Source: a virus. From it: a DNA stretch of 43,269 bases. Below the pieces are notes generated by a model. That model saw only the letters and a list, made by a program, of their open reading frames with translations. It was not told the DNA's origin and made no database searches. Below are positions 19,080 to 39,958 of the stretch, in pieces. Positions within the stretch are counted from its first letter, which is position 1, and each line of letters begins with the position of its first letter. Location: the IMG/VR virus record IMGVR_UViG_3300034071_000597, positions 1-43,269 of that record; one strand, given 5' to 3'. Position numbers and translations under genes: made by a program.

Positions 19080-19152
19080 TGGAGCGGAATACGGGAATCG
19101 AACCCGTCTATGCCTCGTTGGCAACGATGCCGGTCGCCTTGACCAACTCCGC
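19080..19152 (-). tRNA. tRNA-Gly(GCC)
   Basis: Acceptor GCGGAGT pairs with ATTCCGC (one wobble), T-arm GGGTTCGATTCCC, anticodon loop TTGCCAA, discriminator T and encoded CCA. Short D-arm. Last tRNA of the array in transcription order. Confidence 0.85.
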
Positions 19153-19156
19153 GAAT

Positions 19157-19231
19157 TGGCTGTCACGCTAGGAATCGAACCTAGCTCGCATCCGTTAACA
19201 GCGGAGCCGCACACCTTGTGCGTTCATGACA
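19157..19231 (-). tRNA. tRNA-Asn(GTT)
   Basis: Acceptor TGTCATG/CGTGACA, anticodon loop CTGTTAA, T-arm CTAGGTTCGATTCCTAG, CCA encoded. One C-T mismatch at the base of the anticodon stem. Confidence 0.85.
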
Positions 19232-19237
19232 ATAAGA

Positions 19238-19311
19238 TGGATGATCCTCTACGACTCGCACGTAGATTCCCAGGGTCAAAGCCTGGCGTCCTACTATTAG
19301 ACGAAGGATCA
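19238..19311 (-). tRNA. tRNA-Gln(TTG)
   Basis: Perfect acceptor TGATCCT/AGGATCA, anticodon stem CCAGG/CCTGG with loop CTTTGAC, T-arm CTACG/CGTAG, CCA encoded. Confidence 0.9.
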
Positions 19312-19315
19312 AAAG

Positions 19316-19395
19316 TGGTACCCTGTGTCAGGATCGAACTGACTCATGCAGCCTTGTAAGAGCCGCTGCCGTCCAACGGCCAAGGCATACAGCAT
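19316..19395 (-). tRNA. tRNA-Val(TAC)
   Basis: T-arm GTCAGTTCGATCCTGAC and loop CTTACAA are clear, A73 and CCA encoded. The best 5' end is ATGCTGT, which pairs 6 of 7 with ACAGGGT (one G-G mismatch). The D-loop is then long, with two GG pairs. The acceptor is the weakest part. Confidence 0.7.
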
Positions 19396-19400
19396 TTAGT

Positions 19401-19417
19401 GCGTATTTCAAAAATAC
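19401..19417 (-). other. 7-bp hairpin between tRNA-Val and tRNA-Gly
   Basis: CGTATTT and AAATACG enclose a 3-nt loop. It has no adjoining T-tract, so a terminator is unlikely; an RNA processing site is possible. Confidence 0.5.
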
Positions 19418-19433
19418 GTACTACACTGCGTAA

Positions 19434-19506
19434 TGGAGCGGATAGAGGGAATCGAACCCTCTCTGCACAGGGTGGAAACCTGGCGGCACGCCTCGTGCGT
19501 ACCCGC
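19434..19506 (-). tRNA. tRNA-Gly(TCC)
   Basis: Acceptor GCGGGTA/TATCCGC, anticodon loop TTTCCAC, T-arm GAGGGTTCGATTCCCTC, discriminator T, CCA encoded. Confidence 0.9.
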
Positions 19507-19512
19507 GACAAG

Positions 19513-19600
19513 TGGCGGATGGCTGTGTACTCGAAACACAGACCCCGAAGGGTCCAGTTCGGTTAGCAACCGGCTCCCAGCCCTGCTGGGTTAGCCATCC
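19513..19600 (-). tRNA. tRNA-Ser(GCT)
   Basis: Perfect acceptor GGATGGC/GCCATCC, loop TTGCTAA, long variable arm (GGACCC-TTCG-GGGTC), G73 and CCA. Class II body as expected for Ser. Confidence 0.9.
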
Positions 19601-19605
19601 ATGAT

Positions 19606-19682
19606 TGGTGCCGCCTGCCTCGACTTGCACGGGCCGTCTGCCGCTTACAAGGCGGCTGCATCGCTATCAATGCTTAGGGGGC
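19606..19682 (-). tRNA. tRNA-Thr(TGT)
   Basis: Perfect anticodon stem GCCGC/GCGGC with loop CTTGTAA, A73, CCA. Acceptor GCCCCCT/AGGCGGC has one mismatch and the T-stem also has mismatches. Confidence 0.8.
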
Positions 19683-19687
19683 GAAAG

Positions 19688-19762
19688 TGGTACCAGAGTC
19701 AGGAACTGCCCCTGCATCCCTCGGTTATCAGCCGAGCGCTCTTCTACTTGAGCTACACTGGT
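19688..19762 (-). tRNA. tRNA-Ile(GAT)
   Basis: Acceptor ACCAGTG/CTCTGGT (one mismatch), anticodon stem CTCGG/CCGAG with loop CTGATAA, T-loop TTCCTGA-like, A73, CCA encoded. Confidence 0.85.
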
Positions 19763-19769
19763 GTTGAAT

Positions 19770-19846
19770 TGGTCAGCCCGGCAGGACTCGAACCTGCATG
19801 TACCTGGTTCCAAGCCAGGACGATTGCCCTTTCTCGTAACAGGCTG
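19770..19846 (-). tRNA. tRNA-Pro(TGG)
   Basis: Acceptor CAGCCTG/CGGGCTG, anticodon stem CCTGG/CCAGG with loop CTTGGAA, T-arm GCAGGTTCGAGTCCTGC, A73, CCA. Confidence 0.9.
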
Positions 19847-19847
19847 A

Positions 19848-19903
19848 TGGCGGGCATTTAACGCATGCCCATGCGCAGGGATATTACGCCACACCTGCCC
19901 GGG
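19848..19903 (-). ncRNA. CCA-ended tRNA-like minihelix or tRNA remnant
   Basis: Only about 55 nt between neighbouring tRNA genes. The 3' end GCCCG-CCA has a possible 5' partner CGGGCA, and GGGCAT-GCGTTAA-ATGCCC forms an alternative 6-bp/7-nt hairpin. No U33-type anticodon loop is present. It is either a decayed tRNA or a processed tRNA-like RNA. Confidence 0.4.
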
Positions 19904-19907
19904 CGAT

Positions 19908-20032
19908 TGGAGCATGTAGGGGCGCTGCCTGGGGCAAGCGACTCGTCTCGCAATTCAAAGTCCCGATTAGCGCCTCGTGACTACGGCGGACCTCGGGCGT
20001 TGGTTGGGCTTTCGCCTGACTCGGCCCTAGTT
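19908..20032 (-). ncRNA. Structured CCA-ended spacer in the tRNA array
   Basis: About 125 nt without a canonical tRNA. Complementary stretches: GGCGCT with AGCGCC as an outer stem, a bulged GCTTGCC/GGCAGC hairpin, GCGA/TCGC, and a GGC-GAAA-GCC tetraloop hairpin. The 3' end is GCT-CCA. Function unknown. Confidence 0.35.
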
Positions 20033-20109
20033 TGGTAGCGGAAGCTGGTAACGATCCAGCCTTGGCCGGGTTATGAGCCCGGAGCGAATCCATCTTCGCA
20101 CATTCCGCT
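20033..20109 (-). tRNA. tRNA-Met(CAT)
   Basis: Perfect acceptor AGCGGAA/TTCCGCT, anticodon stem CCGGG/CCCGG with loop CTCATAA, A73, CCA. Three G-C pairs next to the loop recall initiator tRNA, but A1-U72 is paired, so elongator, initiator-like and Ile2 (lysidine) identities cannot be separated here. Confidence 0.85.
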
Positions 20110-20115
20110 ATAAAG

Positions 20116-20192
20116 TGGTCGACATGGTAGGAGTTGCACCTACAAGCCCCTAGGTTTGAGCTAGGGAGGTCTGCTATTCCCATCACACGTCG
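20116..20192 (-). tRNA. tRNA-Leu(CAA) with short variable arm
   Basis: Acceptor CGACGTG/CATGTCG, anticodon stem CCTAG/CTAGG with loop CTCAAAC, T-arm GTAGG/CCTAC, A73, CCA. The D-arm (TGATGGGAATAGCAGAC) is Leu-like, but the variable region is only about 5 nt rather than a class II arm. Confidence 0.75.
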
Positions 20193-20196
20193 AAAT

Positions 20197-20280
20197 TGGT
20201 ACCCTGCACAGGAGTTGCACCTGTACGACTTGCGTCGCTGCGTTCTAAGCGCAGTGTGTCTGCTGTTCCACCAGCAGGGC
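20197..20280 (-). tRNA. tRNA-Leu(TAG)
   Basis: Acceptor GCCCTGC/GCAGGGT, anticodon stem CTGCG/CGCAG with loop CTTAGAA, variable arm CGACGCAAGTCG, T-arm ACAGG/CCTGT, A73, CCA. Confidence 0.9.
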
Positions 20281-20286
20281 ATAAAG

Positions 20287-20360
20287 TGGACACGCAGACA
20301 GGGGTCGGACCTGCATGACTGGGGCTGCAATCCAGTGCCTAGCCATTCGGCCACTGCGTG
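20287..20360 (-). tRNA. tRNA-Cys(GCA)
   Basis: Perfect acceptor CACGCAG/CTGCGTG, loop TTGCAGC, discriminator T73 as required by CysRS, CCA encoded. One A-C mismatch closes the anticodon stem. Confidence 0.85.
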
Positions 20361-20379
20361 ATATTCATTAACTGGTGAA
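20359..20379 (-). repeat. 21-bp motif, copy 2 (see 10239-10259)
   Basis: Matches the copy upstream of the spike gene at 17 of 21 positions in the same orientation. Here it lies immediately upstream of tRNA-Cys. Confidence 0.5.
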
Positions 20380-20437
20380 AGACCCGGCCCTGATGCGCAT
20401 ATCCGCCCTGCGGTAGAGGCGTGGCCGGGTGTGTTTC
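20361..20437 (-). ncRNA. Hairpin-rich spacer between tRNA-Ala and tRNA-Cys
   Basis: ACCCGGCC and GGCCGGGT form an 8-bp outer stem, with an inner CCGC-AGG-GCGG hairpin and an ATGCGCAT palindrome. No anticodon arm. It may be a tRNA-like RNA or a processing element. Confidence 0.4.
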
Positions 20438-20512
20438 TGGTGGACCGTGTGAGACTCGAACTCACCAAGCTGCAATCTTGCAAGGATTGCCTGGGTGCCC
20501 TGCCCACAGCCC
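20438..20512 (-). tRNA. tRNA-Ala(TGC)
   Basis: Acceptor GGGCTGT/ACGGTCC, anticodon stem CAATC/GATTG with loop CTTGCAA, T-arm GTGAGTTCGAGTCTCAC, A73, CCA. Confidence 0.9.
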
Positions 20513-20517
20513 GTAAT

Positions 20518-20591
20518 TGGCACACCGTATCGGTGTCGATCCGATCTATTGTGGGTTGAAAGCCCACATGCGTCACCGGACGCAACGGTGC
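20518..20591 (-). tRNA. tRNA-Glu(TTC)
   Basis: Acceptor GCACCGT/ACGGTGT, anticodon stem GTGGG/CCCAC with loop CTTTCAA, T-arm ATCGG/CCGAT, G73 as expected for Glu, CCA. Confidence 0.9.
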
Positions 20592-20597
20592 ATAGTC

Positions 20598-20673
20598 TGG
20601 TTGGCCCTGTCGGAATCGAACCGACATCACTTCGCTTAAAAGGCGAGTCTCTGTCCCGCTGAGTTAAGGGCCT
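20598..20673 (-). tRNA. tRNA-Lys(TTT)
   Basis: Acceptor AGGCCCT/AGGGCCA (first pair A-A mismatched), loop CTTTTAA, T-arm GTCGGTTCGATTCCGAC, A73, CCA. Confidence 0.85.
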
Positions 20674-20677
20674 ACAT

Positions 20678-20752
20678 TGGCGATTCGTACGAGAATTGAA
20701 CTCGTCTCAGAAAGTAGACAGCTTTCCTGCGACACCAGTCGCATCACGAACC
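20678..20752 (-). tRNA. tRNA-Asp(GTC)
   Basis: Acceptor GGTTCGT/ACGAATC, anticodon stem GAAAG/CTTTC with loop CTGTCTA, T-arm ACGAG/CTCGT, G73 as expected for Asp, CCA. Confidence 0.9.
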
Positions 20753-20758
20753 ATTGTC

Positions 20759-20849
20759 TGGTCGTCCTGCTCGGACTCGCACCGAGACTGCCCGCTAATC
20801 TGGCGGAATACGGCTTATAAGTCCGTCCGTGCTGCTTTACACCACAGGA
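20759..20849 (-). tRNA. tRNA with TAT anticodon on a class II body
   Basis: Acceptor AGTCCTG/CAGGACG (first pair mismatched), loop CTTATAA giving TAT (formally Ile, AUA). It has a long variable arm (CCGC-CAGATTA-GCGG) and a Leu-like D-arm, with T-arm CTCGGTGCGAGTCCGAG, A73 and CCA. Ile tRNAs are class I, so amino-acid identity is uncertain; Leu charging is conceivable. Confidence 0.65.
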
Positions 20850-20855
20850 CTAAAT

Positions 20856-20932
20856 TGGTCGGCCCACTGAGTCTCGCACTCAGACATCACTGGGTAAGAG
20901 CCAGGTAGGCTGTCTAGTAACCTCCTGGGCCG
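20856..20932 (-). tRNA. tRNA-Lys(CTT)
   Basis: Perfect acceptor CGGCCCA/TGGGCCG, loop CTCTTAC, T-arm CTGAG/CTCAG, A73, CCA. A C-T mismatch at the base of the anticodon stem. Confidence 0.85.
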
Positions 20933-20937
20933 AATAT

Positions 20938-21012
20938 TGGTGCAGCCTCTAGGTATCGCACCTAGCTTTGCTGGTTTTCAGCCAGCCGCTAATCTGTCTC
21001 AGCTAAAGCCGC
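20938..21012 (-). tRNA. tRNA-Phe(GAA)
   Basis: Acceptor GCGGCTT/AGGCTGC, anticodon stem GCTGG/CCAGC with loop CTGAAAA, T-arm CTAGG/CCTAG, A73, CCA. Confidence 0.9.
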
Positions 21013-21016
21013 GAAT

Positions 21017-21092
21017 TGGCACCCACTGTAGGAGTCGAGCCTACGCAGTCGACGTTCGTAGCGTCGCTCCCGAATTCCCTCGGGCAATGGGC
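21017..21092 (-). tRNA. tRNA-Arg(ACG)
   Basis: Acceptor GCCCATT/AGTGGGT, anticodon stem CGACG/CGTCG with loop CTACGAA, T-arm GTAGG/CCTAC, G73, CCA. A34 would need host TadA to make inosine. Confidence 0.9.
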
Positions 21093-21097
21093 ATAAA

Positions 21098-21173
21098 TGG
21101 CACGCCTAGTAGGATTCAAACCCACGCACTGAGGGGTAGAAGCCCTCTGCTCTGTTCTCTGAGCTATAGGCGT
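21098..21173 (-). tRNA. tRNA-Arg(TCT)
   Basis: Perfect acceptor ACGCCTA/TAGGCGT, anticodon stem GAGGG/CCCTC with loop CTTCTAC, T-arm GTGGG/CCTAC, G73, CCA. Confidence 0.9.
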
Positions 21174-21177
21174 AAAA

Positions 21178-21252
21178 TGGCGGGCCGGAAGCATGCTGGC
21201 TAACGCTTTCTGCTGCCCTCGCAGCAGTCCGGGACTAACTCCCGGAAGGCCC
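21178..21252 (-). ncRNA. tRNA-like element without a usable anticodon loop
   Basis: tRNA length (75 nt), GGGCC/GGCCC acceptor end, G73 and CCA, and a CCGGG-AGTTAGT-CCCGG hairpin where the D-arm should be. The anticodon position is a 7-bp stem with a GAGG tetraloop and no U33. No normal T-arm is visible. It may be a decayed tRNA or a tRNA-shaped RNA. Confidence 0.5.
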
Positions 21253-21256
21253 AAAA

Positions 21257-21345
21257 TGGCGGATGGCTGATAGAATCGAACTCCAAGCCCCGGAGGACTC
21301 CATCGGTTTTCAAGACCGTGGCAGGCCCAGCCTGCATAACCATCC
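21257..21345 (-). tRNA. tRNA-Ser(TGA)
   Basis: Acceptor GGATGGT/GCCATCC, loop CTTGAAA, long variable arm, G73, CCA. The T-stem is imperfect around the canonical GAGTTCGATTC loop. The acceptor resembles the other Ser tRNA, giving SerRS similar elements. Confidence 0.8.
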
Positions 21346-21416
21346 AGAAGACGTACGGTTCTTTTAGTGACCACGGCCCCGTAGGACAATGGAGGGCGAA
21401 CCGAAAAGCCTGCGCT

Positions 21417-21492
21417 TGGATGATCCGGCAGGGATCGAACCTGCGTGGGCGACGTTCAGAGCGTCACTGGGATACCAGCAACCCACAGATCA
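21417..21492 (-). tRNA. tRNA-Gln(CTG)
   Basis: Acceptor TGATCTG/CGGATCA, close to that of the other Gln tRNA, anticodon loop CTCTGAA on a GACG/CGTC stem, T-arm GCAGG/CCTGC, CCA. Confidence 0.9.
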
Positions 21493-21507
21493 ATAGTAGC
21501 ACTGAGT

Positions 21508-21577
21508 TGGCAGATTGTCAAGGACTCGAACCTTGCTGCAGAGATTTGGAGGCTCCGCTGCTCCCTGAGCACAACCC
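21508..21577 (-). tRNA. tRNA-Trp(CCA)
   Basis: Acceptor GGGTTGT/ACAATCT, T-arm CAAGGTTCGAGTCCTTG, G73 as expected for Trp, CCA. Anticodon loop CTCCAAA, closed by a C-T mismatch. Compact D-arm makes the gene only 70 nt. Confidence 0.8.
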
Positions 21578-21583
21578 ATTGTT

Positions 21584-21669
21584 TGGTGCATCGTCTTGGA
21601 GTCGAACCAAGCAGGCCATAAGGCACCAGATTTACAGCCTGGTCAGGGTCCGTCCCTGGCTAACGACAC
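21584..21669 (-). tRNA. tRNA-Tyr(GTA)
   Basis: Acceptor GTGTCGT/ACGATGC (two wobbles), anticodon loop CTGTAAA on CCAGG/TCTGG, long variable arm as expected for bacterial-type Tyr, T-arm CTTGG/CCAAG, A73, CCA. Confidence 0.9.
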
Positions 21670-22877: not shown

Positions 22878-22887
22878 CCTGGCTCGA

Positions 22888-23020
22888 TTATGTTCAATGC
22901 ACCAGAATGGTGCATGATTATGTCAAATGCACCGAATTGGTGCATAGATTATGCTCGTGTCCATTATGTCAAATGAACATAACAGGCAATGCATTATGTT
23001 AATGCACCAAAATGGTGCGA
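22888..23020. repeat. Iteron-like array of about 30-bp units with ATGCACC/GGTGCAT palindromes
   Basis: Palindromes with 7-bp arms and a 5-nt centre lie at 22897-22915, 22927-22945 and 23002-23018 (last arm imperfect). Each is preceded by an ATTATGT element at 22889, 22919 and 22994, with a degenerate unit at 22963-22992. The first two are 30 bp apart, about three helical turns. The pattern fits binding sites of a dimeric protein (repressor or origin binder). Confidence 0.75.
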
Positions 23021-23030
23021 GTCTATGTGA

Positions 23031-23220
23031 CATCTTCATATACGTCATAACCCGCATCCTAGTCATGCATTATGGCACATAGCACGGGGTATGCATAGCA
23101 TGGTGCGTTGCACAACATGGTGCATTGCGTCATGGCATGGCGTATGCATGGGTATGCAATGTCTGTGCCATGCCTTGCGGCATGGGTATTGCTAGGCAAT
23201 TAGCATGCCATCCGCTACGT
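23031..23220. other. Non-coding stretch rich in GCATGC-, CATGG- and TGCAT-type words
   Basis: Many short palindromic words, including CCATGCC-TTGC-GGCATGG at 23168-23185 and ATTGC-TAG-GCAAT at 23188-23200. No ORF is credible. It continues the iteron region up to the first rightward promoter candidate. Confidence 0.55.
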
Positions 23221-23242
23221 GGTCATGCTGTGCGATGCATGC

Positions 23243-23270
23243 TTGACAGCATGCCGGACCATAAGAGAAT
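23243..23270 (+). promoter_or_regulatory. Promoter candidate for the rightward amidoligase module
   Basis: TTGACA at 23243-23248, 16 bp, then GAGAAT at 23265-23270. The -35 box is flanked on both sides by the palindrome GCATGC, a likely operator arrangement. It lies 42 bp before the first ORF of the unit. Confidence 0.55.
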
Positions 23271-23311
23271 GCACGCACGGTCAATTCGGCCGGGTAGTGA
23301 GTAGCCCCACA

Positions 23312-23524
23312 ATGAGCATACCTAGCAACGCATTGCGCGACGCGGTCGCGCTGTTTGACGAATGCCGCACCTTTGGGCTGTCAGAGCGCAGCGCACGCGA
23401 GCAAGCGATCACGCAGTACGCCAAGGATGCGAGCCTGTCACGGATTACAGCGGGCCTTGCTATCGACGCTGCGCTAGCGCGTCGTCACATGACTGCCGAA
23501 TGGCTCGCGAGTGGGCCGGCGTGA
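23312..23524 (+). CDS. Hypothetical protein, 70 aa, first gene of the amidoligase module
   Basis: I prefer ATG 23312 (MSIPSNALRDAVALFDECRT) because the frame upstream to 23219 runs into the repeat region and promoter. The product is helical and Ala/Arg-rich. It ends in GTGA, coupling it to the next small membrane ORF. No family recognised. Confidence 0.5.
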   Translation: MSIPSNALRDAVALFDECRTFGLSERSAREQAITQYAKDASLSRITAGLAIDAALARRHMTAEWLASGPA

Positions 23525-23625: not shown

Positions 23626-25257
23626 ATGTTTAGTCAGGAACACATAGCCGCTATGCATTCATTCGTAGAGCATGGCGGTACTAGCAGTTACGTACGCACG
23701 CAACTGCGGTTCGCATGGTCATGCGCGCAACTCGTGGACGCATTGCGCGATGCAAACCCAGATTGCGCGGCATTGTCTGATCCGCTGTCGGACGACTTTG
23801 CCGCGCTGTTTGATAACGAGACTGACGCGCCGACTGCGCTACTGCGGTCGCTCGTTATTCCGCAGTTCATCCGGGAGCGGGCGCTGTCGGATCACGATGA
23901 CACGGACTCGCACTTGTTGATACTGCGCGCATTGGCGACGCGCAAGGCCGCACGCTCTGACGCGCGCCAATGGGTAAACGGAGCGCGCGTTAGCGAGGCC
24001 GTAGAATCGACTGCCGTACGCCGCTGCGCTGTCGCGCACGGCATGCTCGCGGCGCAATGGCTCGACGCTAACTACGCTGACAGCGTCACGGCGTGCAGTG
24101 ACTGCGGATCAATGCACTATTCGCTTGCTGGCGGCGACGAACGCGCGCACGACATTGGCGACCCGCTGAGCCTCCGCAGGGTAGAGCCTCCGCACGCTAT
24201 ACCGACGGTCATTTGTCGGCATTGCGATAACAACTACATAAACTTGATTACTGGCGAACGTATCCGGCTCGCGCCCGCGCACCACGTGCGCGCACAGGAT
24301 ACAGGCCGGTATGCTCGCAATGGGTATGCGCGCAACCATTGGCACATGGACACTCGCGGACACCTGTACGAAACGGAAACCGCACGGGATCACGCCGAAG
24401 AAGACTACCGGGCGGAAATGGATTCGGACGACTACGGCGGCGACAGCGTCGTGCTGGACTACAACGCAAACCCGTTTGACTATTTCAAATGGCACAAGGC
24501 GAACGCACACGATGCGCTAGTGATGGGCGTAGAACTTGAGATGGAATCCGTTGACCAAAACGAGGATCAAGTACGGGAGATTATCGACGCACTAGGCGGT
24601 AACGTCTGCGACAACGCGATATTGAAGCATGACGGATCGCTGGATTATGGCGTAGAACTTTGTACTATGCCGTTTACGCTTGACCAACATCGCAAAGAGT
24701 TTAACTGGCAGCGACTCACGGCCGTGCACCGTCTCGCGATGTCTGGCACAGGTACTAACAATTGCGGTATGCATGTTCATGTAAACCGCAGCGCGCTAAC
24801 GGCGCTACAACTCGGCAAAATGCTCGTGTTTATGAATTCGCCCGAACTGCGCACGCTCATAACCGCAGTCGCGCAGCGTCAGGAAAACTCGTATTGCAAG
24901 CGCAAGACAAAGAAACTTAGCGACGGCAAATACTTTAGCGACGACAGGTACGATATTCTGAACGTCGGCGTTCGCCGTCCGACAGCGGAATTCCGCTTGT
25001 TTAAAGGCAATTTGCGCCCCGAGCGAGTGTTGAAAAATCTTGAATTCGTCCATGCCGTTTGCGTGTACTGCCGCGACGTAAGCATGCGTGACGTTGAGTC
25101 GTGGGCTAACTTCTCGCGCTGGCTGATCGCCAAACGTGGGCAATATCCGCAGCTGGTGCGGTTTCTTGCGGAGCGTGGCGTCTTCGGGTTTCGCCAATTG
25201 CAAGCCAAGGTACTGCGACGCCAGGGCGAACCGCTGGCCGTGCTGACCGACGCCTAA
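23626..25257 (+). CDS. Amidoligase (COOH-NH2 ligase, Amidoligase_2 family) with zinc ribbon, 543 aa
   Basis: The C-terminal half has the motifs of glutamine-synthetase-fold amidoligases: GVELEME at about 301-307, DGSLDYGVELCTMPF at 336-350, GMHVHVN at 381-387 and EFRLFKGNL at 455-463. The glutamates and histidines there would bind Mg-ATP. A four-Cys zinc ribbon is formed by CSDC (about 157-160) and CRHC (about 197-200), preceded by a helical N-terminal domain. Such enzymes join an amine to a carboxylate using ATP. The next gene is a class II amidotransferase, the partner predicted for this family by Iyer and Aravind. The substrate is unknown: protein, peptide or small metabolite. Confidence 0.8.
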   Translation: MFSQEHIAAMHSFVEHGGTSSYVRTQLRFAWSCAQLVDALRDANPDCAALSDPLSDDFAALFDNETDAPTALLRSLVIPQFIRERALSDHDDTDSHLLILRALATRKAARSDARQWVNGARVSEAVESTAVRRCAVAHGMLAAQWLDANYADSVTACSDCGSMHYSLAGGDERAHDIGDPLSLRRVEPPHAIPTVICRHCDNNYINLITGERIRLAPAHHVRAQDTGRYARNGYARNHWHMDTRGHLYETETARDHAEEDYRAEMDSDDYGGDSVVLDYNANPFDYFKWHKANAHDALVMGVELEMESVDQNEDQVREIIDALGGNVCDNAILKHDGSLDYGVELCTMPFTLDQHRKEFNWQRLTAVHRLAMSGTGTNNCGMHVHVNRSALTALQLGKMLVFMNSPELRTLITAVAQRQENSYCKRKTKKLSDGKYFSDDRYDILNVGVRRPTAEFRLFKGNLRPERVLKNLEFVHAVCVYCRDVSMRDVESWANFSRWLIAKRGQYPQLVRFLAERGVFGFRQLQAKVLRRQGEPLAVLTDA

Positions 25258-25291
25258 TCTGTTTTCACTTCATCGAATAGGAATTTACACC

Positions 25292-26212
25292 ATGTGTTTG
25301 ATCGCTTACTCACCTACCGGACGCGCAATCCCTGCCGACGTCTTCGAATCCGCCGTTACGCAGAATGAGGATGGCATCGGCGTCATGTCGCTAGACGGCG
25401 TCGCGAAGTTCATCGGCCGCAAGTTCAAAAAGCGTGCAAAACGGTACCTGCGTTCGCTGGCGGATGCAGGCCAGCCATACGGCGTACACTGGCGTTACGC
25501 TACGCACGGCCGTATCAGCCGCCGCAATACACATCCGCATTTTGTGCCGTCATCCGACGCGGTCGTGATGCACAACGGTGTACTGTCGCTTACCGCTGCG
25601 GAAGCTACAGAGGAACTGTCAGACACTGCGCTCTTTTGTGAGCAATACTTGCCATCTGCGCCGGACCATTCCGACAGCGGCTACTACGATTACTGGCGCA
25701 AGGTCGCTGACATGATCGGGTACGGTAACAAGTTCCTAGTCATGCACGCGGATACCGGCCGGTTTACGCTCGTTAACGAGGATGCCGGCGAATGGATAGA
25801 CGGCCTGTGGTACTCCAATACCTACAGCCTGCCGGACTATATGGACCGATGGTCTAACCCGTACTACGGGTCGCGCAAGTTCGGTTACGGCGAAACGTGC
25901 GCAGCTACGCCAGTAGCCGCGCCATCGGCGCAAGTTTTCGTCGGCGCGGATGGCCGTCTGCATCGCGTCACTGATACCAGTATCGAATCTTTCGACGTGC
26001 CCGGTTACGAAGACGATCCGTATTACATCGCCAAGGCTCGCGAGGCCGGGTATCACGACGACGGCATGACAGTCGGCGAGCGTGCGGCGCGGGCCGCGCT
26101 GGGGCTGGACGACGACGACGCGGCTAGCGCCCGCGTCTTGCGGGAGTCTCGCGCCGACGACGCACGATACAAGCAAGCATTGCGGCGCGCAGCGGGCCGG
26201 ATGGCTCGCTAA
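25292..26212 (+). CDS. Class II glutamine amidotransferase (Ntn hydrolase), 306 aa
   Basis: Cys2 follows the initiator Met (MCLIAYSPTG) and would be the N-terminal nucleophile after Met removal. HWRYATHGRISRRNTHPHF (about residues 65-83) and MHNGVL (about 93-98) are the R-x-AT-HG, N-x-HP and HNG motifs of the family. It should hydrolyse glutamine and supply ammonia, most likely to the amidoligase encoded 34 bp upstream. The C-terminal about 110 residues, after an Ala/Pro linker, are charged and not part of the core domain. AGGAA precedes the ATG and a strong terminator follows the gene. Confidence 0.85.
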   Translation: MCLIAYSPTGRAIPADVFESAVTQNEDGIGVMSLDGVAKFIGRKFKKRAKRYLRSLADAGQPYGVHWRYATHGRISRRNTHPHFVPSSDAVVMHNGVLSLTAAEATEELSDTALFCEQYLPSAPDHSDSGYYDYWRKVADMIGYGNKFLVMHADTGRFTLVNEDAGEWIDGLWYSNTYSLPDYMDRWSNPYYGSRKFGYGETCAATPVAAPSAQVFVGADGRLHRVTDTSIESFDVPGYEDDPYYIAKAREAGYHDDGMTVGERAARAALGLDDDDAASARVLRESRADDARYKQALRRAAGRMAR

Positions 26213-26234: not shown

Positions 26235-26266
26235 GGGCGCGGCTCGCAAGGGTCGCGCCCTTTTTC
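26235..26266 (+). terminator. Rho-independent terminator closing the amidoligase module
   Basis: GGGCGCG and CGCGCCC enclose a 12-nt loop and are followed by TTTTTCTT. It lies 22 bp after the amidotransferase stop, making the amidoligase genes a discrete transcription unit. Confidence 0.85.
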
Positions 26267-26489: not shown

Positions 26490-26595
26490 GCGTGCATTAA
26501 GTTAAATTTTGCGTTATGACAACAATGCGTTATGTCGCATGCATTATGTGCAATGCGCATTATGTCATGTTGCACTGCACATTTGTCATAACGGG
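26490..26595. repeat. Second cluster of GCRTTATG repeats
   Basis: GCGTTATGACA, GCGTTATGTCG, GCATTATGTGC and GCATTATGTCA occur within about 80 bp. They share the element seen in the 22.89-23.02-kb iteron array. It lies in the leader between two promoters ahead of the sigma-like gene. A common DNA-binding protein may act at both places. Confidence 0.65.
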
Positions 26596-26743: not shown

Positions 26744-27406
26744 ATGTCTAAACAAGGCCCAGAGTCCTACACCAAGTACAAGACTACTCAGCTTGACAAC
26801 GCGCTGCTTGTCTCGCTGGCGGAACGGTACCGCGCTGGTGACGTTGCAGCGCAGAAGGAGCTATGGGGGAGGGGGGCTGGCTACGCCATGGGCGTAATCA
26901 GCAAGATGATACACGACGGACAGCTGCGCAGTGATGCGTTCGCTGATGGGGACCTTGTGCAGGAGGCTATGCTTGCCGTAGGCGGGGTCATTGAGCGGTG
27001 GCAACCAGAACGCGGGGCGTTCTCGACGTTCGCGTACCATCGCATCAGGGGGGCTGTGCTCAGTTACCTGGGCGGTGAGACGCGGCATGCTGCCGCTACA
27101 GCGGAGCCGACGCCACTCGCGGATGACGACGAGGACGGCATAGAGTTCGAGCCGGAGACGGCGAGCACAGGGCAAGATGATGTGATGTACACCGAGGTAC
27201 TGCTTTCGGAGATACTGGGCGAGATTGACCGCTTGCCGCCGGAGCAGAACGACGCCATCATGTACCATTACGGGCTTCGTGGACACGAGCCCATGACGCT
27301 GCGAGAAGTGGCGGGTGCGCTGGGCTACACGCATCCGACCACGGCTAAGCGATTGATTGATAAGGGCCTTGCTACGCTGCAAAACAAGTTTTACAATATA
27401 GCTTGA
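26744..27406 (+). CDS. Sigma-70 family RNA polymerase sigma factor (regions 2 and 4), 220 aa
   Basis: Region 2: a helical stretch at about 35-110 with DLVQEAMLAVGGVIERWQPE (70-89) and GAFSTFAYHRIRGAVLSYL (91-109), the 2.1-2.4 pattern with aromatic residues for -10 melting. An acidic linker follows. Region 4: LPPEQNDAIMYHYGLRG (164-180) and a helix-turn-helix at 184-212 (MTLREVAGALGYTHPTTAKR). It should bind host core polymerase and redirect it to phage promoters, filling the role of the missing phage polymerase. Its last codons overlap the -35 box of the next gene's promoter. Confidence 0.85.
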   Translation: MSKQGPESYTKYKTTQLDNALLVSLAERYRAGDVAAQKELWGRGAGYAMGVISKMIHDGQLRSDAFADGDLVQEAMLAVGGVIERWQPERGAFSTFAYHRIRGAVLSYLGGETRHAAATAEPTPLADDDEDGIEFEPETASTGQDDVMYTEVLLSEILGEIDRLPPEQNDAIMYHYGLRGHEPMTLREVAGALGYTHPTTAKRLIDKGLATLQNKFYNIA

Positions 27407-35679: not shown

Positions 35680-36213
35680 ATGAACAAGTTTTTGGCTATT
35701 GTGCTCCTCGCTGCGGCGGGAGCCGCGTCTGCTAAGACCCCTGTGCCTGTTCCGCCAAGTCCCGTAACTCAGTCTCAGTCGATGGAGCAGGAGCAGAACC
35801 AGTCGCAGGGGCAGTCGCAGAGCGCTAGCGCGCAGGCCGGGGCTACTGCCAGTTCTGGCGGTAACACCCAGCAGGTAGTGATTACGCAGCCTCGTCAGGC
35901 CCCTGCAGTGCTCGCGGCGCAGACCAACACGACAGCTAAGTGCGCCCGCGCCGTAGGCGCTAGCGTCGCAGTCGCAGGCTTCGGCATTGGGGGCAGTATG
36001 GCCGTCCGTGACAAGGACTGCCGCCTCGCGGAGGCTGCGGAGTACGAGCTTGCCCAGGGTAACAAGGGGGCGAGTATCGCGCTCCGCTGTCAGGTAAGCT
36101 TCTACAAGGTGACCTTTGGCGATACGTGTATCGCGATACTGAACGAGGTTACTGTCGAGCGGCCTAGCCTGTCTCGTGAACAGGTGCGCGAGGCACTCAG
36201 TGGCGGCAAGTAG
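35680..36213 (+). CDS. Exported protein with signal peptide, 177 aa
   Basis: MNKFLAIVLLAAAGAASA-K is a good Sec signal with an AxA cleavage site near residue 18. The mature protein has a Gln/Ser-rich linker (QNQSQGQSQSASAQ) and a C-terminal part with three or four Cys (KCARAV, KDCRLA, RCQVSF, DTCIAI) and a Gly-rich hydrophobic stretch (VAVAGFGIGGSM). It probably acts in the periplasm or at the outer membrane. AAGGA precedes the ATG. Function unknown; envelope modification or exclusion is possible. Confidence 0.7.
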   Translation: MNKFLAIVLLAAAGAASAKTPVPVPPSPVTQSQSMEQEQNQSQGQSQSASAQAGATASSGGNTQQVVITQPRQAPAVLAAQTNTTAKCARAVGASVAVAGFGIGGSMAVRDKDCRLAEAAEYELAQGNKGASIALRCQVSFYKVTFGDTCIAILNEVTVERPSLSREQVREALSGGK

Positions 36214-36562
36214 CGCTATCTGGCTTGTTTGCGGCGGGCGCGAGTTTGAGGACGCCGACGCAGTATTCGGGGCGCTGATGTGCGCCGCCGAAGAGCGCGG
36301 CCAGCCGGCCATGCTTATACACGGCGGCTACAGGGGCGTGGACCTTCTGGCGGCGGAGTGGGCGCGAGAAAACGGCGTACACTCGGCAGAAGTTCTGGCG
36401 CTATGGGACGAGTACGGCAAGGCTGCTGGACCGAAGCGCAACGCGGCCATGCTGTTGCTTAGGCCCGACCTAGTGATCGCGTTTCCGGGCCGCGTGGGCA
36501 CCGCTGACATGGTTCGCAAGGCGGTGGCCGCAGGCGTAGAGGTACTGAAATGGAACTACTGA
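36200..36562 (+). CDS. SLOG-family protein (DUF2493-like), 120 aa
   Basis: I use GTG 36200, with GAGG upstream; a GTG at 36176 is the alternative. IWLVCGGREFEDADAVFGAL and IHGGYRGVDLLAAEWARENG, then GPKRNAAMLLLRPDLVIAFPG, match the Rossmann-like SLOG/DUF2493 pattern with a glycine-rich nucleotide site. Family members bind or process nucleotide ligands. It overlaps the exonuclease gene by 13 bp. Confidence 0.75.
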   Translation: MAASSAIWLVCGGREFEDADAVFGALMCAAEERGQPAMLIHGGYRGVDLLAAEWARENGVHSAEVLALWDEYGKAAGPKRNAAMLLLRPDLVIAFPGRVGTADMVRKAVAAGVEVLKWNY

Positions 36563-37506: not shown

Positions 37507-37657
37507 CGCTACTAACCAGGAACTGTTCTACGCCTTGTTGCAGAAATACAACAACGGCATTGAACCGCTCGAATCGTGGGCAGACGAGGACATCGAGACG
37601 CTGTTCGACATCGTGACTGACCTGTACGTCGGCATGGTGGTGGACGAAGACAAATGA
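37499..37657 (+). CDS. Small acidic protein, 52 aa
   Basis: ATG 37499 overlaps the exonuclease end, with GGAGG 8 bp upstream. LESWADEDIETLFDIVTDLY is an acidic helix. DNA-mimic or inhibitor roles are possible for such proteins but nothing specific can be said. Confidence 0.6.
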   Translation: MTSATNQELFYALLQKYNNGIEPLESWADEDIETLFDIVTDLYVGMVVDEDK

Positions 37658-38217
37658 GTCTTCACATTCCACACGACCGTGGACCCATGGTCTACACCAA
37701 AACGGGCCGCTTCTACGTTGCGGACTCTCCGTTTGACATGGAATGTGTAGCGCACTCGCTGGGGCAGCTTGCCCGCTTCAACGGCAACGGTAGCTTCTTC
37801 TACAGCGTGGCAGAGCACAGCGTGCTGGTGTCGCTGCTGATGGAGGAGCTTAAACTGGGAGACCCGCTGGAGGGGCTCCTGCATGACGGTACAGAGTCCG
37901 TCCTGTCCGACGTGCCGTCGCCTATCAAGTCCCTGCTGCCGGACTGGTGCAAGCTAGAAACTCTGCTTGACAAGCGGCTGCGCAGGCAGTATGATCTGCC
38001 GCTTGAGAAGACGGCAGGGTGCCACCACGCTGACCAGCTTGCGCTGTTCATCGAGGCGTACCAGCTTGTCACGGACAAGGGAGTCTCGATAAAGGACTCC
38101 CTGCAAGTAAGGCCGCAGGCCTTGACCCTGCGCAATCAGGGCTGGATGATACGGGGGCTAGAGTGGCATCACGCAAGCGAAGTGTTCCTGTCGCGGTTCT
38201 CACGGCTGAAGAGGTAG
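37654..38217 (+). CDS. HD-domain phosphohydrolase (YfbR-like), 187 aa
   Basis: SVAEHSVLVSLLMEE and GLLHDGTESVLSDVPSPIKS hold the HD-domain metal ligands (H55 region and H-D at about 76-77), with a later CHHADQLALFIEAYQ segment. This matches phage 5'-nucleotidase/dNTP hydrolase HD proteins. It probably acts on deoxynucleotides; no purZ gene is seen, so a Z-genome role is not supported. Confidence 0.8.
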   Translation: MSLHIPHDRGPMVYTKTGRFYVADSPFDMECVAHSLGQLARFNGNGSFFYSVAEHSVLVSLLMEELKLGDPLEGLLHDGTESVLSDVPSPIKSLLPDWCKLETLLDKRLRRQYDLPLEKTAGCHHADQLALFIEAYQLVTDKGVSIKDSLQVRPQALTLRNQGWMIRGLEWHHASEVFLSRFSRLKR

Positions 38218-39214: not shown

Positions 39215-39458
39215 CGTCGAAGTCAAGATCAACGGGGCTGTCATCGTGTCCGTTGTGGGCCAGAACATGGGCTACACGGACTCTGTCGAGGGCTTGCCGC
39301 ACGATACGTGCGACTACAAGTGGGCTGCTGTGGAGTACGACGCGGCCACGCTGGAGCCGAGCACGGCCACTGGCTGGCTTAAGCACCGCCGCTCGGCGGG
39401 CATCGTGCCTCTGGTGCAGGACGTGCTGGCGGCGTACCGCAAGGCGGAAAAGGAATGA
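39207..39458 (+). CDS. Hypothetical protein, 83 aa
   Basis: ATG 39207 has GGAGGG upstream and overlaps the previous gene by 8 bp. Begins MFSVEVKINGAVIVSVVGQN and ends in a helix (LVQDVLAAYRKAEKE). Possibly a partner of the gene before. Function unknown. Confidence 0.65.
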   Translation: MFSVEVKINGAVIVSVVGQNMGYTDSVEGLPHDTCDYKWAAVEYDAATLEPSTATGWLKHRRSAGIVPLVQDVLAAYRKAEKE

Positions 39459-39958
39459 GTCTGCCGACCGATGACACCGAACGCAAGCGCATGCAGATGT
39501 GGACGTTCTTGACCGAGTACTTCCCTGATGCGTTCGAGGAAGTGGTCAAGGTAGCCGTAGCCGGCAACGAGCAGCATAACCCAGGCGAGAAGCTGCACTG
39601 GGCTCGCGGCAAGTCCATGAACCAGATGGACACGGCTTTCCGGCACCAGTGGGACTACGCTCGCGGTGTCCACAAGGACACGGACGGCATGTACCATCTG
39701 GCTAAAGCCATCTGGCGACTGCAGGCGGAACTGCAGCTGCTGATCGAGCAGGAAAGGTCGCCTACTCCACAAACGCCAAGCCCGCAGCTAACTGGTAACC
39801 CCGCCTACTGGCTAGCCTGGTGGCCCGCCGCCGTACCTGTAGCATGCAGCACCACTAAGGGAGACCCGAGTGCGCAGACATCTAATCATTCCGGACACGC
39901 AGATTCGGCCGGGAGTAAGCTCGGACCATCTCACCTGGGCCGCTTACGCTATAGTTGA
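39455..39958 (+). CDS. MazG/DUF5664-like nucleotide pyrophosphohydrolase, 167 aa
   Basis: Residues about 20-97 (AFEEVVKVAVAGNEQHNPGE, RQWDYAR-type helix, HLAKAIWRLQAELQL) have the all-alpha pattern of DUF5664/MazZ-type dNTP pyrophosphohydrolases. The His/Asp-rich helix carries the likely metal residues. The last about 70 residues are low-complexity, and the last 89 bp overlap the phosphoesterase gene in another frame. It may cleanse or balance dNTPs. Confidence 0.6.
   Translation: MSLPTDDTERKRMQMWTFLTEYFPDAFEEVVKVAVAGNEQHNPGEKLHWARGKSMNQMDTAFRHQWDYARGVHKDTDGMYHLAKAIWRLQAELQLLIEQERSPTPQTPSPQLTGNPAYWLAWWPAAVPVACSTTKGDPSAQTSNHSGHADSAGSKLGPSHLGRLRYS

Follow-up and report, generated by a model that had tools for sequence, protein, structure and literature searches.

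The window analysed here, a virus record of 43,269 bases, carries an amidoligase gene and a class-II glutamine amidotransferase (GATase) gene side by side, and the two form a real unit that is inherited together. Their products probably combine as two subunits into a glutamine-dependent amidoligase, i.e. a carboxylate-amidating enzyme, since a class-II GATase next to an ATP-dependent carboxylate ligase is most simply understood as a glutamine-dependent amide synthetase. The locus adds a new, minimal case to a module already known from many phages. The initial annotation of this DNA had presented it as an uncharted system, a view that has to be abandoned, because reports of the pair exist for several phage groups, and a putative role in cell-wall modification or superinfection exclusion is already in print (PMC10580990, PMC5498523, PMC11945000).

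Table 1. Features of the module and its surroundings in the window; residue numbers are those of the respective protein
Feature	Position	Strand	Basis or remark
Operator-like repeats (putative)	22885–23018		three dyads interleaved with TTATGTNNAATG; enriched over shuffles
Small ORF	23219–23524	+	between control DNA and amidoligase; putative coding
Amidoligase (COOH-NH2 ligase), 543 aa	23626–25257	+	Pfam Amidoligase_2, AlphaFold2, Foldseek, motifs
Amidoligase N-terminal zinc ribbon (CxxC…CxxC)	C157, C160, C197, C200		cysteine conservation
Amidoligase catalytic motifs	G301-x-E303-x-E305, D336-G-S338, E344, H383-x-H385, R418, E455-x-R457		
Class-II GATase (Ntn), 306 aa	25292–26212	+	profile and fold match to GlmS glutaminase
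GATase active-site residues	Cys2, H66-x-R68, T71, G73, H81-P82, H94-N95-G96, D111		
Intrinsic terminator	26235–26260	+	11-bp stem, 9 GC pairs, then TTTTTCTT (T-run)
Second TTATGT-type motif cluster (TTATGTNNAATG)	26530–26591		3′ of module, 5′ of sigma-factor gene

The late genes (portal, major head protein and terminase) lie on the minus strand and are followed by a tRNA cluster on the same strand, an AT-richer gap of about 900 bp and then the plus-strand early genes, the first substantial ones being those for the amidoligase and the GATase. These two adjacent ORFs were confirmed as initially delimited; they are separated by 34 bases, and Shine-Dalgarno-like sequences precede both starts (AAGAGGA before 23626 and TAGGAA before 25292). 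On the 3′ side of the pair come the terminator, promoter-like sites, a sigma-70-family gene at 26744 and the genes for primase/Toprim, a DnaB-like helicase and PolA. The latter is 42% identical to PolA of Vibrio phage VpV262 and the replication backbone of the window is therefore VpV262-like. A DNA-level search of public phages with the 4-kb module region returned no match, and neither Pfam nor PHROG gives one for the small ORF upstream of the amidoligase.

The tRNA cluster (19080–21669, minus strand) comprises 17 tRNAs according to ARAGORN and at least two more Rfam tRNA matches, in a phage of 43 kb. One tRNA missed by ARAGORN (21261–21345, minus strand) scores 47 bits with the Rfam selenocysteine-tRNA model, which is exactly the gathering score. 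Its 8-bp acceptor stem and 6-bp D stem are both Sec-like and its anticodon loop, CUUGAAA, reads UGA (serine); it is possibly an unusual serine tRNA. Downstream on the plus strand, the window encodes a YspA/cpYpsA-related protein of the SLOG family, a nucleotide-ligand-binding type of fold (36176–36562; PF10686, E = 3.6e-14), a deoxyribonucleoside monophosphate phosphatase-like protein (37654–38217; phrog_318) and a dATP/dGTP diphosphohydrolase N-terminal domain (39455–39958; PF18909, E = 8e-11). Nucleotide-pool enzymes such as the latter two are of a kind that occurs with altered-base phages; PurZ was not recognized among the scanned ORFs of the window.

The initial annotation described the module as preceded by iteron-rich control DNA and closed by its own terminator. 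The terminator was borne out (folding energy –23.7 kcal/mol, z = –2.8). Repeats do exist upstream, but in the form of inverted dyads, not simple iterons, and they sit 600–730 bp from the pair, with the small ORF in between. The window has perfect GCACC-N5-GGTGC dyads only at 22899, 22929 and 23004, which amounts to six strand-counted matches as compared with 0.64 expected, a count reached by none of 100 shuffles; they alternate with TTATGTNNAATG at 22888, 22918 and 22964. Given the distance, the intervening ORF and the presence of TTATGTNNAATG on both sides of the module, this control DNA may not belong to the module alone. Judging from its sequence, the dyad region looks like the operator of a divergent late/early switch, with a second site in front of the sigma gene.

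The first protein of the pair matches Pfam Amidoligase_2 (PF12224, E = 1.5e-7; 32.0 bits against a curated cutoff of 22), a family whose Pfam text mentions a GATase neighbourhood. In an AlphaFold2 model built from 53 sequences, the core (approximately residues 281–520) has a pLDDT of about 95, and confidence is low over the N-terminal half. Searching PDB sequences with the profile of the amidoligase produced noise only, and relatives were found by fold comparison instead: YbdK and its Salmonella homologue are the top Foldseek matches in the PDB (E = 1.7e-6 to 3.7e-6), and Dop, glutamate–cysteine ligase, PafA and glutamine synthetase (GS) are found further down, along with annotated phage amidoligases. 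As modelled, the protein is a COOH-NH2 ligase of the GS-superfamily fold, which is what had been proposed for it. Residues E303, E305, S338, E344, H383, R418, E455 and R457 are present in all 94 non-redundant pairs that made up our conservation survey. The predicted zinc ribbon also stands. Its four cysteines are kept in at least 90% of the 53-member alignment, and at least one CxxC lies N-terminal of the core in 90 of the 94 non-redundant relatives. Because confidence in the model is low over this half of the protein, assignment of the ribbon rests on this cysteine conservation, which identifies it as a family trait and not an accident of the window sequence.

The second protein starts with Met-Cys, and C2, R68, T71, N95 and G96 are invariant across the 94 pairs (D111 in 87), so that the catalytic Cys2, like the Glu and His residues of the ligase, is retained in relatives. 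In our alignment, Cys2, HxRxxT, HP, HNG and Asp111 fall on what we take to be the glutamine-site positions of GlmS, and all of them are conserved without exception or almost so. Taken alone, the window protein falls below the Pfam cutoff (GATase_6, E = 0.071; 13.6 bits against 27), a cutoff that is a detection threshold and not a functional feature. Among its relatives, 39 of 51 match GATase_4 and 16 of 51 match GATase_6 (E up to 0.01), and by such profile comparisons the window protein is classed as a divergent member of the class-II GATases. With the profile of the family as query, the GlmS glutaminase domain (1xff) is retrieved at E = 2.8e-11. Residues 1–180 of the model reach a pLDDT of at least 90, and Foldseek places GlmS glutaminase first (E = 1.4e-6, probability 1.00), followed by PurF and EgtC. 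The modelled structure has the Ntn fold, in agreement with the original description of an Ntn amidotransferase with an N-terminal Cys.

The EgtC match raises another reading of the pair, modelled by analogy on the ergothioneine and butirosin pathways: the ligase would load an amine with an amino-acyl group, glutamyl or another, and an EgtC-like GATase would later remove or trim this group. EgtC-type amidohydrolases, which have the same GATase fold, work without ammonia channelling, and this we counted against a two-subunit enzyme, as we did the failure of a search for natural ligase–GATase fusions to find any, and that of the literature search to find any biochemistry of the amidoligase/GATase family. 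The occurrence of YbdK and glutamate–cysteine ligase among the fold matches of the amidoligase also agrees with an add-and-remove pair, as does that of gamma-glutamyl cyclotransferase (GGCT), an enzyme of gamma-glutamyl amines, which is fused to the GATase in two loci and lies nearby in several; such fusions and neighbours hint at gamma-glutamyl chemistry and likewise weigh against the two-subunit reading. In the two fusions (L013:4001-5218 and L016:4001-4897), the AIG2-like GGCT domain is C-terminal, which provides a lead on module chemistry. However, GlmS-type glutaminases outscore EgtC by far in the profile comparison, where the EgtC match is weak (E = 0.059). Moreover, no more than about 9 of the 94 non-redundant pairs have a GGCT alongside the GATase, GGCT replaces the GATase in none of the inspected loci, and neither a GGCT nor an ATP-grasp gene was found among the scanned ORFs of the window. 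Since GlmS outscores EgtC and the scanned window ORFs include no GGCT or ATP-grasp gene, we rank the gamma-glutamyl explanation second and consider it unlikely.

That the two genes belong together is apparent from two viral surveys, one per seed protein, which yielded 78 amidoligase-seeded and 77 GATase-seeded new loci. The GATase lies immediately 3′ of the amidoligase in 76 of the former, and the amidoligase immediately 5′ of the GATase in 73 of the latter; in two of the four exceptions, the GATase is less than 300 bases from the start of the locus. The two members nearly always occur in the same order, a few bases apart, as expected of the discrete module that had been postulated. Bacterial genomes give a similar picture, with a downstream GATase in 20 of 21 loci (12 detected by HMM and 8 divergent ones by motif). 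An apparent lack of GATase in about half of these genome loci proved to be an HMM artefact, a divergent GATase being present downstream in all eight readable cases. In the locus scan, three-member alignments worked, and the diverse-family alignments A3 and A4 were too divergent. Distances between amidoligases correlate with those between GATases (Mantel r = 0.82, permutation maximum 0.09; r = 0.35 for distant pairs alone). One could imagine that a GS-like gene and a piece of GlmS were acquired as common metabolic genes and lie side by side devoid of joint function, and the isolated GATase indeed matches GlmS models over a short stretch only; this is hardly credible, being already contradicted by the near-universal adjacency and fixed order in unrelated phages, the joint divergence of both proteins and their invariant active sites.

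Hosts and homes of the pair are found among Proteobacteria, Actinobacteria and Firmicutes. Of the four nearest phages, two, whose modules are 44–52% identical to that of the window, lack its DNA polymerase, although these records may be fragments; the module therefore seems to move between backbones. It also precedes a helicase gene in two survey loci, L017 and L073, and in L017 a primase gene as well. A mycobacterial plasmid (NZ_CP015269.1, 148727–149281) carries a GATase of the same family, over which glucosamine 6-phosphate synthetase and amidoligase enzyme are annotated, and the pair may thus travel on plasmids too. An unnamed family of 216–318 aa is encoded just 3′ of the GATase at L153:3581-4384 and 17 other loci (8 of the 94 non-redundant ones); it was not found in the window. 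In gut Firmicutes loci L011, L173, L184 and L192, a DUF3846-like gene (a family of 124–148 aa) adjoins the pair. PADLOC profiles match neither protein, and a known anti-phage defence system was accordingly dismissed.

If the pair is a two-subunit enzyme, the GATase would split glutamine at Cys2 and pass ammonia to the amidoligase, which would use ATP to activate a carboxylate, forming the acyl phosphate, and convert it to a carboxamide. By analogy, this chemistry would match that of MurT/GatD or asparagine synthetase B in principle, with different protein components. The zinc ribbon may aid recognition of a macromolecular target that bacterial phyla have in common, be it an envelope peptide or a protein of the host, and modification of this target might help early host takeover or exclude competing phages. 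Together, the ribbon and the host range suggest a large bacterial target, and the spread of hosts over three phyla argues for a widely shared one. A cell-wall or envelope peptide is a possible, tentative candidate, and a host or phage protein is a slightly less likely one. Unlikely is the more specific idea of a phage protein-amidating enzyme, in which a PafA/Dop-like ligase would use glutamine-derived ammonia to amidate particular carboxylates on a conserved protein of the host; to our knowledge, post-translational takeover by protein amidation is not known in phages. The signalling metabolites and DNA-linked groups initially listed as targets are not favoured in particular by any result, and nothing in the neighbour survey indicates base modification or a DNA-linked role.

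The envelope candidate coincides with the view that the module is a peptidoglycan cassette, here of two genes, that alters stem-peptide linkages of the host and excludes superinfecting phages, as proposed for phiEco32 and LUZ24-like phages. This view concerns the target and is compatible with the two-subunit enzyme. It has been published for homologous cassettes (PMC5498523, PMC10580990, PMC11945000), and MurT/GatD (PMC3267633) sets a precedent for a two-gene enzyme amidating the stem peptide. Nevertheless, those cassettes have an ATP-grasp enzyme, a GGCT and a second ligase that are absent among the scanned window ORFs, a small murein precursor has no obvious need of a zinc ribbon, and the literature search found no experiment for any phage, so that we regard this proposal as conceivable but short of probable. 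For phage amidoligases, the predicted targets are cell walls, proteins or metabolites. The literature search found no demonstrated substrate for any of these enzymes, in line with the initial statement that the substrate is undescribed, and the study of OM43 phages, which reports amidoligase and GATase as a pair, concludes that their functions 'remain to be explored' (PMC10580990). In this respect, the recurrence of the two genes alone across very different phages and hosts makes the two-protein enzyme the smallest testable unit, and its glutaminase half (Gln to Glu) offers a ready assay with which to screen for the substrate.

Among characterized enzymes, PafA/Dop and YbdK share the GS-superfamily carboxylate-amine ligase fold with the amidoligase, at about 11–16% identity over aligned columns. 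We know of no GATase partner for either. MurT and GatD have the Mur-ligase and class-I GATase folds and are not homologous to the phage pair. The Staphylococcus aureus enzyme is comparable by analogy only, as a two-subunit, glutamine-dependent system for carboxylate amidation (PMC3267633).

The closest parallels come from phages. The combination of amidoligase and GATase has been noted in phage tf and other LUZ24-like phages (PMC3517423, PMC3890496), and RIO-1-like podoviruses carry a seven-gene 'peptidoglycan modification' cassette (PMC5498523). Superinfection exclusion has been proposed for phiEco32 and secondary-metabolite synthesis for Marvin, both as cited in PMC10580990. Like the window, the cassettes of LUZ24/PaP3/tf, RIO-1 and phiEco32-like phages combine an Amidoligase_2 protein with a class-II GATase (PMC3517423, PMC3890496, PMC5498523); these cassettes also comprise an ATP-grasp enzyme, a GGCT and a further COOH-NH2 ligase, of which the scanned window ORFs showed none, and in UFV-P2, unlike the window, another gene separates the GATase from the amidoligase. 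The Methylophilales (OM43) phages MEP401 and MEP402 have the adjacent pair upstream of primase, helicase and polymerase, as in the window, with 24–26% identity for each protein (PMC10580990), but in MEP402 the two genes share 10 bases, whereas a gap of 34 separates those of the window. Finally, gp105–gp106 of mycobacteriophage Marvin and its relatives show the same two families, order and adjacency at 28% identity per protein, albeit near the right genome end and in another phage lineage.
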